DNA of 47,524 nt from Atribacteraceae bacterium. GTDB lineage: Bacteria > Atribacterota > Atribacteria > Atribacterales > Atribacteraceae. The stretch lies in the NCBI GenBank assembly GCA_035477455.1, contig DATIKP010000094.1:1-47524 (forward strand). The letters run 5' to 3'. The position numbers and the translations under genes were made by a program. Positions 1 through 11,763 of the stretch are shown here, in pieces. The notes below the pieces were generated by a model, which did no database searches, was not told where the DNA came from, and was given only the letters and a program-made list of their open reading frames with translations. Position 1 is the first letter of the stretch; each line of letters starts with the position of its first letter.

Positions 1-13
1 CCGGGGAGGCCGA

Positions 14-661
14 GTGAAAGCCATACGCTCCCCGGAGAACGGGAGGATAGCAATGCGGGATGGAATACAACCGGCCGAGAAAACCCGCCGTAAGCAAGCG
101 GCGAAGGCGATTTCTCTGTTTCTCCAGCCGATGACGGCAGCCGCGATCCTCTATGCGATCGTGGCTTGGAATGTCTCCGGAGGCTGGGAGGCGGCGGGTT
201 ATTTTTTGATTGGAGTGAGTTTCATCGCAGTCGGACCGGCGGTTCTGATCCTTCTCCTTAAACACGCCCGCATGATTTCGGATTTGGATCTGAGTGACCG
301 GCGGGAACGGTTCAAACCTTATCTCATGTTCGTTGGGCTCAATACCCTCTCCTTGGTCATTTATGTGCTTGAGGGGGCACCGAAGCCCTTGTTGGGGGTC
401 ACCGCGAGTTATGTGACGGTCACATTGGCCGGGGGAATCATTTCCAACTATTGGAAAATCAGCATGCATCTGGCCGGTATCGCCGGTCCGGTCACCGCCC
501 TGACCATGGTTGTCCATCCCCTGTTGGCTGTTTTTTATCTTCTATGTGTCCCGGTAGGCTGGGCCCGCCTGTTTTTGAACAAGCATACGGTTCCCCAGGT
601 CATCTGGGGCAGTCTGTTTTCAGCTGCTTTGACCATGACGGTGATTTCCCTCATCCTATAA
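14..661 (+). CDS. PAP2-superfamily-like integral membrane protein
   Basis: Polytopic membrane protein of about 215 residues with roughly five or six hydrophobic segments. Near the C-terminus it has KISMHLAG and, about 40 residues later, WARLFLNKHTVPQVIWG. These fit the spacing of the second and third phosphatase blocks of the PAP2 superfamily, with one His in each block, as in undecaprenyl-pyrophosphate or phosphatidate phosphatases. The first block (K..DLDLSDRRERF) is also recognisable. Substrate is inferred only: a lipid phosphate at the membrane. The GTG at 14 has GGGGAGG just upstream; the in-frame ATG at 53, preceded by GGGAGGA at 41-47, is an equally good or better start. The first 13 bases of the window are all that is seen upstream, so operon membership is unknown. 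The 200 bases between this gene and mfd hold no convincing gene. Confidence 0.65.
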   Translation: MKAIRSPENGRIAMRDGIQPAEKTRRKQAAKAISLFLQPMTAAAILYAIVAWNVSGGWEAAGYFLIGVSFIAVGPAVLILLLKHARMISDLDLSDRRERFKPYLMFVGLNTLSLVIYVLEGAPKPLLGVTASYVTVTLAGGIISNYWKISMHLAGIAGPVTALTMVVHPLLAVFYLLCVPVGWARLFLNKHTVPQVIWGSLFSAALTMTVISLIL

Positions 662-7843: not shown

Positions 7844-7898
7844 GAGTAGGGGAATGGCCTGACCCCCGATGTGGGGCGCCTTCCCCTACTCGTTTTTA
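7844..7898 (+). terminator. Rho-independent terminator of the mfd-S1 run
   Basis: An 11-bp perfect stem, GAGTAGGGGAA at 7844-7854 pairing with TTCCCCTACTC at 7881-7891, is followed by GTTTTTAT. The stop codon of the convergent minus-strand mutase gene lies inside the right arm; the minus direction lacks a good T run, so the signal mainly serves the plus strand. Confidence 0.85.
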
Positions 7899-9535
7899 TC
7901 CTGTCGCAGAGCGGAAATTCTCTGCCGTTCCGTGAGCGGTTGCCCGTCCTTGTCGACTACCCGCAGAATACTATCCCGCAGGCGGGTGATGACTGTACCC
8001 TGCGCTTCCGGATTGCCGGACAGGTGCGGAGCGTCAAGAAGGCCGGTTTCCACCGCGCGGGCCAGGGTTTCCGGCGAGGTCCAGGGGTCTTCGATGCCCG
8101 GCGAAGCGATCTCCCGGATCGTTTCGAGGATCAGGCGCGCTTCCTCTTTTATGCGTTTTTTGTGTTTCTGAATAAAGGGGTCTTGGTCAATCCGCGGGAG
8201 CCCAATCAGTAGATCGGACAGAACGCCCTGCACGATCCGGGCGCTTTCCACCACCTCGAGTGAACAGGCGATATGATTCGCTTCACAAAAACCGACGACG
8301 TGAATGATGTCGGGAAAGAGGTGTAGACCCAAAGCGGTGGAAGCGGCCAGTTGTCCCTTGGCTATATCCAGGTTGGGCGTGAAATGGGAAAGTCCGGCCC
8401 GGATCTGGGTGAAGACATTGAAACCGGGGTCGGTGAGTTCCCCGAGCAATTCCTGTTTGGCCAGCATTTTGGCCAGATCGGCCCGCGGGGAGATACCAGG
8501 CGGGGTGTTGAACATGTACTGGGCAACATAGTGGCGAGCCCCGAAAGCCTTGGCCTGGTAGGCCCCGAGGAAAAAAGCGGCGGCGGCTACCGAATCCGGC
8601 GCGTCCCGCAGGCTCCACTGGTGCGCCTCGTTCACTTCCAGGGGAATACCGAGGTTGATGTAGGTGCGCATCGCCTCCTGGTTTTCCTGGATCGCTTGAA
8701 CCAAGGGTCGGGAAGAACGGCCGTCGAGTGTGCTGTACCAGAAGATAGGGACTACGCCCCAGGCGATATGTATGGTTTCGGCAAGCAAGTGGGCCCACTC
8801 CCGGAGATGGTTGGTGCCGCTGTAACAGCGGAGTAGCGGATAATTTCCCCGCCGGGAAGCCCGGTAGATACGTTCCAGGTCCTCTCTGGTCCGCAGCGGA
8901 ACCCCTCCGGCCCCGTTTTCGTCGCTGCGCATGTTTTCCGGCTCGAAGAAGAATTCCTGGGCATTCTGATCCGGTCCCAGGGAAATGATGTCGACCGCCT
9001 TCTCATCAGCGATTCGCTCTACGCCTAACACGGTCTCCTCAACGGTGGGGACTCCGAAATGGTGGCGGAGCAGGGGAAACGGCTTTTTTGCCGTGACCCG
9101 CTCGGGAAGAGTGGGAGGATATTTTGCTTCGAAGGGAATACCCTTTCCTTTTTCAGTCAGGCTGGCCAGGATGTCGTCGAACGGTTCCCCACCGGTGAAA
9201 ATAAAATCGAAAATTCCGGCATTGACCGCCGCTTGCCGCAGCGCCGGAGGGCAGCTCAAGATCAACGGGAAGGTGCCGGCGAGGCGTTCCCGTTCCAGCC
9301 CCCTTTTTAACTCTCTGAAGAGAAGGGTAGCGGCGTCTTCGCTCAAACGGTAACCCACGATCATCCGTTCGGGATGTTGAGTTTTAGCTTGAGCGACGAT
9401 AGATTCCACCGGGACGGAGGGCCCCAGAAAGACCGCGCGGTAACCGTGTTCTTCGGCCAGCGTCAGAAACCGGTAGATCCCCACCACGTGGACATCGTTT
9501 CCCAGTGAGGCGCCAATGATCGTTTTTTCCCTCAT
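7886..9535 (-). CDS. B12-binding domain fused to a glutamate-mutase-E-like barrel
   Basis: The N-terminal 120 residues are a base-off/His-on cobalamin-binding Rossmann domain, with the diagnostic DxHxxG as D14-V-H16-V-V-G19 and GG at 115-116. The remaining 430 residues resemble the E subunit of glutamate mutase (methylaspartate mutase): a TIM-barrel-like region with VDIISLGPDQN, LEVNEAHQWSLRDA, AYQAKAFGARHYVAQYMFNT and GLSHFTPNLD. In glutamate mutase the B12 and catalytic parts are usually separate chains; here they form one 549-residue polypeptide. The Arg-His-Gly substrate-binding stretch of known MutE is not evident (RCYSGTNH is in that area), so the substrate may not be glutamate. The ATG overlaps the stop of the dehydrogenase gene (ATGA). 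Predicted to be an adenosylcobalamin-dependent carbon-skeleton mutase, substrate unknown. Confidence 0.75.
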   Translation of the reverse strand: MREKTIIGASLGNDVHVVGIYRFLTLAEEHGYRAVFLGPSVPVESIVAQAKTQHPERMIVGYRLSEDAATLLFRELKRGLERERLAGTFPLILSCPPALRQAAVNAGIFDFIFTGGEPFDDILASLTEKGKGIPFEAKYPPTLPERVTAKKPFPLLRHHFGVPTVEETVLGVERIADEKAVDIISLGPDQNAQEFFFEPENMRSDENGAGGVPLRTREDLERIYRASRRGNYPLLRCYSGTNHLREWAHLLAETIHIAWGVVPIFWYSTLDGRSSRPLVQAIQENQEAMRTYINLGIPLEVNEAHQWSLRDAPDSVAAAAFFLGAYQAKAFGARHYVAQYMFNTPPGISPRADLAKMLAKQELLGELTDPGFNVFTQIRAGLSHFTPNLDIAKGQLAASTALGLHLFPDIIHVVGFCEANHIACSLEVVESARIVQGVLSDLLIGLPRIDQDPFIQKHKKRIKEEARLILETIREIASPGIEDPWTSPETLARAVETGLLDAPHLSGNPEAQGTVITRLRDSILRVVDKDGQPLTERQRISALRQDKNE

Positions 9536-10641
9536 ACTTGGACCTCCTTAGCCTCTTCCATCACTACCAGTTCCCGGATTTCCTTGACGCTCAGATTAGC
9601 GAGACCCAGTTTCTCCACGGTCCTTCCCTCCCGCCAGTAATCCCGCTCATGAAGTAGACTGGCGAGATGGATCATGTTGTCGATGGTAGGGGTGGGGATC
9701 CCGAGCATTTTCCCAAAGGAAGAAATGGGGACCAGGCTCATGGGAACGTCTTCGATTATGTAGCGGGTGTAGATGGTGGATGGTGCCTGGATGCCCCGAT
9801 AACCGGAGTTGTTCTGGATCGCCTCATAGAGGTTGCGGCCGTGAGCGTCGTAGGCCGAGTAGAGCCAGTCCCGGGCGGTGATGGCCCGTATACCCAGCCC
9901 TTCGGCAACCTTGACCCGTTCCTTGTCCACTTCGGCCAGGATCAGGGATGTCGCCGGGGTAATACCCTCGATGTAGTAGTCGAATCCTCCGTGGGTGCTC
10001 TCGATGCGGGCGGCGTTCAGGATGGTGAGAGTGGGATGAAAGACTGCGCCGATATTGTTGAAACTCGTTTTCAGGATATTGTCTTCGGGCAGGAACTGGG
10101 GAAGGGCCTTACGCAGGGCCTGGACCACTTCGACCGTTTTGTAGGCGGGCAGGGCTGCGACGGGAATGGAATTTTTCACCCGGAAAATCTTCACTTGGGC
10201 GGGCCCGGTGATCCGGCTGGCGAAGATAAAGGTTTGGGCTTCGGCGATGATCACCCGGGCCTTGATTTCCTGCTCTTTCAGGATCTGCCTGACCTCGAGC
10301 GCCCCTCCCGTACGGCCCGGATTCAATACGATGATCTGTCCGTCCTCGAGAACCGGTCCCAGGTTTTCGGCCATGTAGCGGTGTCCATAAGCCGGGACGA
10401 CCACCATCAGGATCTGGGCGCCTTTGATCGCTTCGGCGATGTTGTCGGTGACGATTCCCAGTTGGGCGAAACCCTGGATTTCCCCCTCCACCTGGATACC
10501 GCCCATCATCCGGACGGAATTGATCCGTTCGTACGTCCGGTTGAACAGATTTACGTTATATCCTTTCAGGGCCAGGTAACCGGCCAGCGCCTGCCCGCCG
10601 TGTCCGGCGCCCAGAACGGTGTAAGTCACGTTAGTTGTCAT
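9532..10641 (-). CDS. Octopine/nopaline (opine) dehydrogenase family protein
   Basis: The protein has an N-terminal NAD(P)-binding Rossmann fold (VLGAGHGGQALAGYLALKGY, residues 9-28) and a second domain of the octopine/nopaline dehydrogenase type with NNIGAVFHPTLTILNAARIE. The HPxxxxxN (H202, N209) matches the catalytic His and nearby Asn of opine dehydrogenases, which reductively condense an amino acid amine with an alpha-keto acid. At 369 residues it is the usual length. ATG 10641 overlaps the ligase gene by 11 bases and its stop overlaps the mutase start, so all three should be translated in step. Ketopantoate-reductase-like activity is an alternative, since these folds are related. Confidence 0.8.
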   Translation of the reverse strand: MTTNVTYTVLGAGHGGQALAGYLALKGYNVNLFNRTYERINSVRMMGGIQVEGEIQGFAQLGIVTDNIAEAIKGAQILMVVVPAYGHRYMAENLGPVLEDGQIIVLNPGRTGGALEVRQILKEQEIKARVIIAEAQTFIFASRITGPAQVKIFRVKNSIPVAALPAYKTVEVVQALRKALPQFLPEDNILKTSFNNIGAVFHPTLTILNAARIESTHGGFDYYIEGITPATSLILAEVDKERVKVAEGLGIRAITARDWLYSAYDAHGRNLYEAIQNNSGYRGIQAPSTIYTRYIIEDVPMSLVPISSFGKMLGIPTPTIDNMIHLASLLHERDYWREGRTVEKLGLANLSVKEIRELVVMEEAKEVQV

Positions 10642-11617
10642 GGCGGCCTCCCACCCGTTCTTCGGCGATGGTCAGAAGCCGGCGGATCATGTCCTTATAG
10701 TCGATGCCCCCGGCCTGGCACATCTGGGGAAAGGCGCTGTATTTGTAATAGAGCAGAGGGAGGGAATTGATCTCGAAAAAGAAGGGGATATTTTCTTTCT
10801 GATTGAAAATCAGGTGAAAGGAGGCATAATCACGCATGTTCAGTTCATTGAAAATGCGGATGACCATGGTTTCGAGCATCGTTTTCTGTTCCTCATTAAG
10901 GTCAGCGGGGCAGAACACATCTTTGACGGAGCTTTGCAGTACCTGGGAATTTTCATGTCGGACTTCCAGGATGGGGAGCATACTGAGCTGTTTGCCGTTT
11001 CCCCACAGCCCGATCACCATCTCCCGGCCCTCCAGGTACTTTTCGATCAGGACTTTTTCTCTGGTCAATTTGTGAAGGGCCTGTATCTTGGCCATGAGTT
11101 CGTCCAAATCATTGGCCACCGAATCGCTGGTAATGCTGGGAAAATGGGTTCGGAAACGGGGTTTGATGATCACCGGGAAGGTTTGACTTTCCGGGACCGG
11201 GTCGTCCGGCAACAAAAGAAAGGACGAGGGGCTGGGGATTCCGATGCCCCGCAGGGAAAGCTTGATCAGGGAACGGTCCAGGCATAAGGAATGCACAGTG
11301 GAGTTGGAGCCCAGATAGGGAATGTGGGTCGCGTCGAGGAGAGACGGCAGAAAGGCCTGATCGTAGATTTCCGATACTTTGACCGCCAGGTTGAACACCA
11401 GGTCGACCCGGCTGGGGTCCAGCGACTCCACGAATTGGTGGATCGGCTGATCCATGTTCAGGCTCCCCACCTGGTATTCCTGATCTGTAAGTGCTTCCTC
11501 GATCAGCGACAGGGTTTTACCTTTGAGGTTGTTTCGGGCTTGGTAAAGGGCTTTTTCCCGTTCATCGAAGATTGTCTCACTGTACGCAATCCAGATATTT
11601 TTCAACGCATTCACCAC
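10631..11617 (-). CDS. ATP-grasp ligase related to D-Ala-D-Ala ligase
   Basis: The protein (328 residues) has the three-part ATP-grasp layout. The N-terminal part has DLVFNLAVK and IPYLGSN, in the place of the Ddl HGxxGEDG region, which is not conserved. The ATP-binding part has FPVIIKPRFRTHF and VLIEKYLEGREMVIGLW. The C-terminal core has NMRDYASFHLIF and FFFEINSLPLL. The Mg-binding E-x-N of Ddl (E-V-N) is kept as E-I-N. It should form an acyl phosphate and join it to an amine, making a peptide-like bond. The substrate is unlikely to be plain D-Ala because the N-terminal recognition region has diverged. GTG 11617 is the first gene of the operon, preceded by AAGG. Confidence 0.78.
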   Translation of the reverse strand: MVNALKNIWIAYSETIFDEREKALYQARNNLKGKTLSLIEEALTDQEYQVGSLNMDQPIHQFVESLDPSRVDLVFNLAVKVSEIYDQAFLPSLLDATHIPYLGSNSTVHSLCLDRSLIKLSLRGIGIPSPSSFLLLPDDPVPESQTFPVIIKPRFRTHFPSITSDSVANDLDELMAKIQALHKLTREKVLIEKYLEGREMVIGLWGNGKQLSMLPILEVRHENSQVLQSSVKDVFCPADLNEEQKTMLETMVIRIFNELNMRDYASFHLIFNQKENIPFFFEINSLPLLYYKYSAFPQMCQAGGIDYKDMIRRLLTIAEERVGGRHDN

Positions 11618-11653: not shown

Positions 11654-11763
11654 GTGTGTGGCTTAAGTTTTCCGGATATAAAGATGTAACGCCTACTGCT
11701 GCGGATATGCTTCGATTGTCTACTGCGTGTGTGGCTTCAGTTTTCCGGATATAAAGATGTAAC
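11654..11763. repeat. Pair of 37-nt direct repeats separated by 36 nt
   Basis: Copies at 11654-11690 and 11727-11763 differ at one base (GGCTTAAG versus GGCTTCAG). The shared core includes TTTTCCGGATATAAAGATG. The 36-bp spacer is unrelated to the flanks. The pair lies 37-146 bp upstream of the minus-strand ATP-grasp start, so it could be a duplicated promoter or operator. Repeat and spacer sizes are also CRISPR-like, but there are only two copies and no cas genes in the window. Confidence 0.85.

Follow-up and report, generated by a model that had tools for sequence, protein, structure and literature searches.

Three overlapping genes in the stretch of DNA analysed here (the window, 47,524 nt, contig C94 of the 2.16 Mb source genome G000) probably encode a single small-molecule pathway, to which we give a rough probability of 0.6. 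At its core is an obligate pair of an adenosylcobalamin (AdoCbl) mutase and an oxidoreductase of the octopine/opine dehydrogenase family (ODH), often joined by an amide ligase, and the mutase would act on a substrate other than glutamate. The co-inherited operon with its undescribed mutase subfamily is real, and the claim at the level of a pathway is well supported. The narrower proposal, that a new AdoCbl mutase reaction on an amino acid or opine lies at the heart of an undescribed pathway in several phyla, with a product new for these organisms, we hold at about even odds. The sequence-only reading that drew attention to these genes knew of no characterised pathway with this trio, and the literature we searched likewise held no description of the gene set.

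All three genes lie on the minus strand with the two short overlaps that had been read from the sequence, and the order ligase, ODH, B12 mutase-like protein agrees with both the coordinates and the domain matches (Table 1). Pfam places PF07478 on the ligase (E=4e-22) and PF02317 on the ODH (E=4e-47); on the mutase, PF02310 (B12-binding, E=2e-4) and PF06368 (MutE, E=0.03) both fall under the Pfam curated cut-offs. As had also been remarked, the trio has no adjoining transporter or regulator in the window. Two copies of the leader repeat, at 11654-11690 and 11727-11763, are 97% identical and spaced 73 bp apart, with no further copy within the window; of the other loci retrieved, L001 alone contains a 21-bp core of it, and L001 is the same stretch as the window. 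No cobalamin riboswitch and no other Rfam regulatory element turned up around the operon in a search across 15 sources, and a sigma-70 promoter scan gave matches not above those in shuffled sequence. Near the relative L042 a c-di-GMP riboswitch precedes a chemoreceptor gene.

Table 1. Features of the window's operon, of the predicted mutase, and of the fusion genes of sister lineages.
Feature	Location	Strand	Remarks
ATP-grasp ligase, Ddl superfamily	10631..11617	-	first gene, GTG start, 328 aa
Octopine/opine-dehydrogenase-family oxidoreductase (ODH)	9532..10641	-	ATG start, 369 aa
Single-chain B12-dependent mutase, predicted	7886..9535	-	ATG start, 549 aa
11-nt overlap, ligase end/ODH start	10631..10641	-	
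4-nt overlap, ODH end/mutase start	9532..9535	-	
Leader region with 37-bp direct repeat (two copies), directly upstream of operon	11654..11763	-	membership of operon not established
N-terminal B12-binding Rossmann domain of mutase	residues ~1-125		H16, G19
C-terminal TIM barrel of mutase, glutamate-mutase class	residues ~135-549		E418 aligns with GlmE E330
B12-mutase-MutL fusion	L034 5308-8967		
B12-mutase-MutL fusion	L035 5447-9103		
B12-mutase-MutL fusion	L036 7625-11275		
B12-mutase-MutL fusion	L037 1883-5533		

Our samples comprised 101 related genomes, 50 genomes of the phylum, 25 of the window's order and 103 Thermotogota. The 31 of the 101 related genomes that carry the mutase are also the 31 with a high-scoring ODH; 69 have neither, and in one (G009) a contig ends in an ODH fragment and the mutase is missing. 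Within the order, 21 of the 25 genomes carry the mutase, always as ligase-ODH-mutase, and it is found in 65 of the 103 Thermotogota genomes, with further matches in more distant bacterial genomes. We strongly infer that the phylum of genome G241 is Thermotogota, and that G372 is Kosmotoga pacifica and G421 K. olearia. The ODH adjoins the mutase at every intact locus examined, both in the first set (33/33) and among the Thermotogota loci (33/33; the sets share L113, L114 and L116), and the ligase is present at 19 and 23 of these, respectively. Three gene orders are seen: ligase-ODH-mutase, ODH-mutase-ligase and ODH-ligase-mutase. The co-occurrence of mutase and ODH (Fisher p=3e-25, with no correction for relatedness) and the correlation among the distance matrices of the three proteins (rho 0.89 for mutase/ODH, 0.88 for mutase/ligase and 0.84 for ODH/ligase; 0/500 permutations) are both inflated, as much of the sample is related by descent. 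Flanking genes differ between loci, with an enolase/DivIC/S1 side in the window's family and others elsewhere, and therefore the unit travels as such. A search for plasmid carriage of the mutase gave no match, and a single-protein scan of genome contigs returned two MAGs only, probably an effect of its exact-peptide seeding.

The sequence-only reading had taken the overlaps to imply a joint function, and had proposed looking for conserved co-occurrence in other genomes. Co-occurrence and adjacency now support one functional unit, and the refuting outcome it had named, a trio not found together in other genomes, did not arise. The conserved core, however, consists of ODH and mutase, and the ligase is a frequent but not a universal third member.

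The ODH matches CENDH (1bg6), its nearest solved relative, over its full length (E=9e-85). It has the PF02317 helical domain, a Rossmann domain and the catalytic His, and it keeps the GxGxxG Rossmann motif, D298 and the HP pair at 202-203, of which H202 is invariant; the HPxxxxxN signature noted earlier is present as HPTLTILN (residues 202-209). CENDH and octopine dehydrogenase (3c7a) belong to the same Pfam family, and their HP and ED motifs are retained, but the trio ODH differs from both in being the constant neighbour of a B12 mutase. It differs from CENDH also after Rossmann strand 2, where it has a nearly invariant Arg (R35) and CENDH has an Asp in the same stretch. Because an Arg in this place is usual in NADP enzymes, R35 suggests that the ODH is NADP(H)-dependent. 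At locus L111 (3135-4736) a PTS EIIA-2 domain is fused to the ODH N-terminus, which suggests phosphotransfer control there. ODH paralogues without a mutase, scoring about 280-300 bits against the ODH profile, are found at G032:C112:4463-8278 (two, near-tandem) and G006:C111:2942-4033.

Genes near the unit in a few relatives give hints about the product. In G087 and G232 the mutase is followed by a CBS protein and a Na+/H+ exchanger (the CBS protein was identified in G087, and a same-sized gene is present in G232), and a mechanosensitive-channel-like gene follows in one of the two. At certain ligase-less loci, at a guess Mesotoga-like, a divergent asparagine-synthase-like gene adjoins, and one 38-40% identical to it lies near L112. 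Together these neighbours point weakly to an amidated solute, and an intracellular solute or osmolyte is a faint suggestion from few relatives. The opine-peptide, metallophore or signal that the sequence-only reading also put forward would be conjecture. The compatible-solute literature that we searched for Thermotogota made no link to the trio genes. Two ODH-mutase pairs occur in one genome (G426, genus g345) at L210 3896-6596 and 13960-16639. Each adjoins a divergent asparagine-synthase-like gene. Ahead of the second pair lie a homoserine-dehydrogenase/aspartate-kinase gene and two further genes that recur as close copies before the first. At L109 an MFS transporter lies downstream.

In sister lineages (G028, G033, G034, G049 and others), an ODH about 25% identical to that of the trio lies ahead of a single 1216-1219-aa protein that joins B12-binding domain, mutase barrel and MutL, with TAXI-TRAP transporter genes alongside. 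All MutL matches above the cut-off within the phylum are this fusion, and since MutL proteins are mutase chaperones, the fusion in these distant relatives ties the family as a whole to AdoCbl mutases. The transporter genes beside the ODH-fusion loci L034-L037, a D-glutamate-cyclase-like gene in L036 (matched in position by a gene of similar size in L035) and a GntR-FCD regulator gene in L034 speak for a degradative role, in which the ODH would oxidise and the mutase rearrange an imported amino acid or opine, and the window's version would be a fermentation or salvage route. AdoCbl mutases are reversible, which also suits this role. We consider it unlikely for the window: its locus has no such transporter or regulator and, across the order's remaining loci, none was recognised as a common neighbour, its ODH has the NADP-type feature, an amide ligase would be odd in a degradative route, and an ODH as divergent as that of the sister lineages may have another substrate. 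The distant MutL-fused version with its TRAP transporters may nevertheless be catabolic, and the direction of the pathway may differ between lineages.

The ligase shares with Ddl and VanA (D-Ala-D-Ala and D-Ala-D-Lac ligases) the ATP-grasp fold, its model having these two as nearest folds (TM ~0.75), and the ATP/Mg residues: K152 and N284 are present in 19/19 trio ligases, and E282 in 17/19, with Asp in the other 2. It departs from them in the N-terminal D-Ala motif GGxSxEHEVS, whose columns are not conserved among the 19, and in the catalytic Arg/Asp pair, which is S266/H268 in the window and mostly Ser or Thr and His in the order, while the ligases of L039, L113, L114 and L116 retain the Ddl Arg and Asp. 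A branch with 100/99 support splits the trio ligases from 22 genuine Ddl of the order, in a tree that the program flagged for long branches, L039 in particular. Judged by these sequence comparisons it is a Ddl paralogue, not a cell-wall enzyme; the source genome has a separate, genuine Ddl of its own, and a role as the cell's sole Ddl was rejected on that account. The earlier assignment to a Ddl-like ligase thus stands as to superfamily, but the peptide bond it foresaw is a class-level guess only, because the D-Ala-binding motif is absent, and replacement of the Arg/Asp pair in the order makes the activity uncertain. Apart from Ddl and the trio ligase, the source genome encodes at G000:C7:3430-4002 a different protein, about 680 aa long, whose ATP-grasp domain is Ddl-C-like; most genomes of the order have it at the matching place.

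A mutase, an ATP-grasp ligase and a dehydrogenase are also the roles of PylB, PylC and PylD, which build pyrrolysine from two lysines (PMC8318568). By analogy the trio mutase would make a branched amino acid, the ligase would couple a second one to it and the dehydrogenase would oxidise the result to a free metabolite or a non-standard amino acid; a glutamate-mutase-type migration on lysine would yield the 3-methylornithine skeleton. We think this very unlikely. PylB is a radical SAM enzyme, whereas the trio mutase is of AdoCbl type, with a B12-binding domain and a mutase barrel and no radical SAM match in domain and fold searches, and it was rejected as a PylB on these grounds. The ODH and ligase have their best matches in the opine-dehydrogenase and Ddl/Van families, the ligase is optional and missing from many loci, and an unsystematic look noticed no dedicated aminoacyl-tRNA synthetase beside them.

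The mutase assignment is weak from the sequence by itself, since a profile of 21 mutase relatives gave convincing matches to B12 domains only. An AlphaFold2 model (pTM 0.83, mean pLDDT 89) secures it: among PDB structures the best match is chain B of glutamate mutase (1cb7_B/6h9e_B; 18% identity, E ~2e-16, TM 0.67 by target length), and lysine 5,6-aminomutase, ornithine 4,5-aminomutase and methylmalonyl-CoA mutase come next. Residues were equated with GlmE by profile-profile alignment (hhalign) with five GlmE-family proteins, not from superposed coordinates. In this alignment E418 pairs with GlmE Glu330, to which a stabilising role for the AdoCbl radical pair is ascribed (PMC4413051), and E418 is invariant in all 32 sequences reaching that position. 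H16 and G19 of the DxHxxG B12 motif are present in 33/33 mutases, the Asp in 5/33, with Cys in the other 28. From the modelled fold and the invariant cofactor residues we read the protein as an AdoCbl mutase of a new subfamily, with presumed radical chemistry. A CobA/BtuR adenosyltransferase is found in 24 of the 25 order genomes, the source genome included, and the PduO type in none of 31 genomes, which have the CobA type instead; no separate MutL reactivase was detected in the window's order beyond weak matches under the cut-off. Lysine 5,6-aminomutase and D-ornithine 4,5-aminomutase, the next-best folds, also combine AdoCbl with a barrel and a Rossmann domain, but the trio mutase has its B12 domain at the opposite end from OraE and lacks their PLP lysine: the position of OAM Lys629 is A27, and is A, C, L, M or V in 33/33. 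Membership of the PLP-dependent aminomutases was rejected for want of this Schiff-base Lys. At L213 (7925-9829), L192 (G454) and L109 (8197-10095) the slot beside the ODH is taken by members of a divergent mutase subfamily, some 633 aa long, which in L213 and L192 also adjoin the ligase.

Might the B12 domain serve methyl transfer or cobalamin sensing, with a barrel that is no mutase? The usual Cys in place of the DxHxxG Asp, B12-domain matches that include methyltransferase corrinoid proteins, and the order's lack of a detected MutL would fit; set against top folds that are AdoCbl mutases and aminomutases, the invariant E418 and the MutL-fused distant relatives, they leave this only a slight chance.

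Glutamate mutase GlmES (EC 5.4.99.1) offers the closest comparison, since the trio mutase has the GlmE fold and keeps both the cobalt-ligand His of GlmS and Glu330 of GlmE. It differs in being one chain with the B12 domain N-terminal, in its partnership with an ODH and often a ligase, in the absence of a detected MutL from the order, and in the arginine claw of glutamate mutase (defined in PMC9545868), which by alignment is not kept: R66 and R100 align with the invariant H159 and Q193, and R149 falls near R236 or Y238, where the register is of low confidence. A divergent but ordinary glutamate mutase of the methylaspartate pathway, for which the best fold match would argue, is hardly credible given this claw, the lack of any match above cut-off to the canonical E family TIGR01503 in the source genome, and a canonical GlmE besides the trio-type mutase in G269. 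Membership of glutamate mutase was rejected on the claw and the TIGR01503 result, which likewise speak against plain glutamate fermentation, named beforehand as a possible refutation, and a substrate other than glutamate seems probable from the alignment.

We therefore return to a pathway built on the mutase-ODH pair. A single-chain AdoCbl carbon-skeleton mutase of the glutamate-mutase class would rearrange a non-glutamate substrate, and an NADP(H)-dependent ODH would act just before or after it, most likely by reductive joining of an amine and a 2-oxo acid. In the window's taxonomic order, and in most Thermotogota, the ATP-grasp ligase would then make an amide bond on the product. The reductive direction, the order of the steps, the preference for NADPH and the radical chemistry are the parts of this scheme that we infer. 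The expected product is a soluble amino-acid-derived metabolite, with an intracellular solute as a first and weakly held guess.

To our knowledge few AdoCbl mutase reactions are known, so that a distinct subfamily whose substrate pocket has changed deserves assay. A mutase that keeps a single reductase, and often a single ligase, at its side across no fewer than two phyla and scattered others, in gene orders that differ, is the signature of a real pathway, and its occurrence in genomes matched to cultured Kosmotoga strains makes that pathway directly testable. If the proposal is true, these bacteria would make a metabolite new to them by way of an undescribed AdoCbl mutase reaction.
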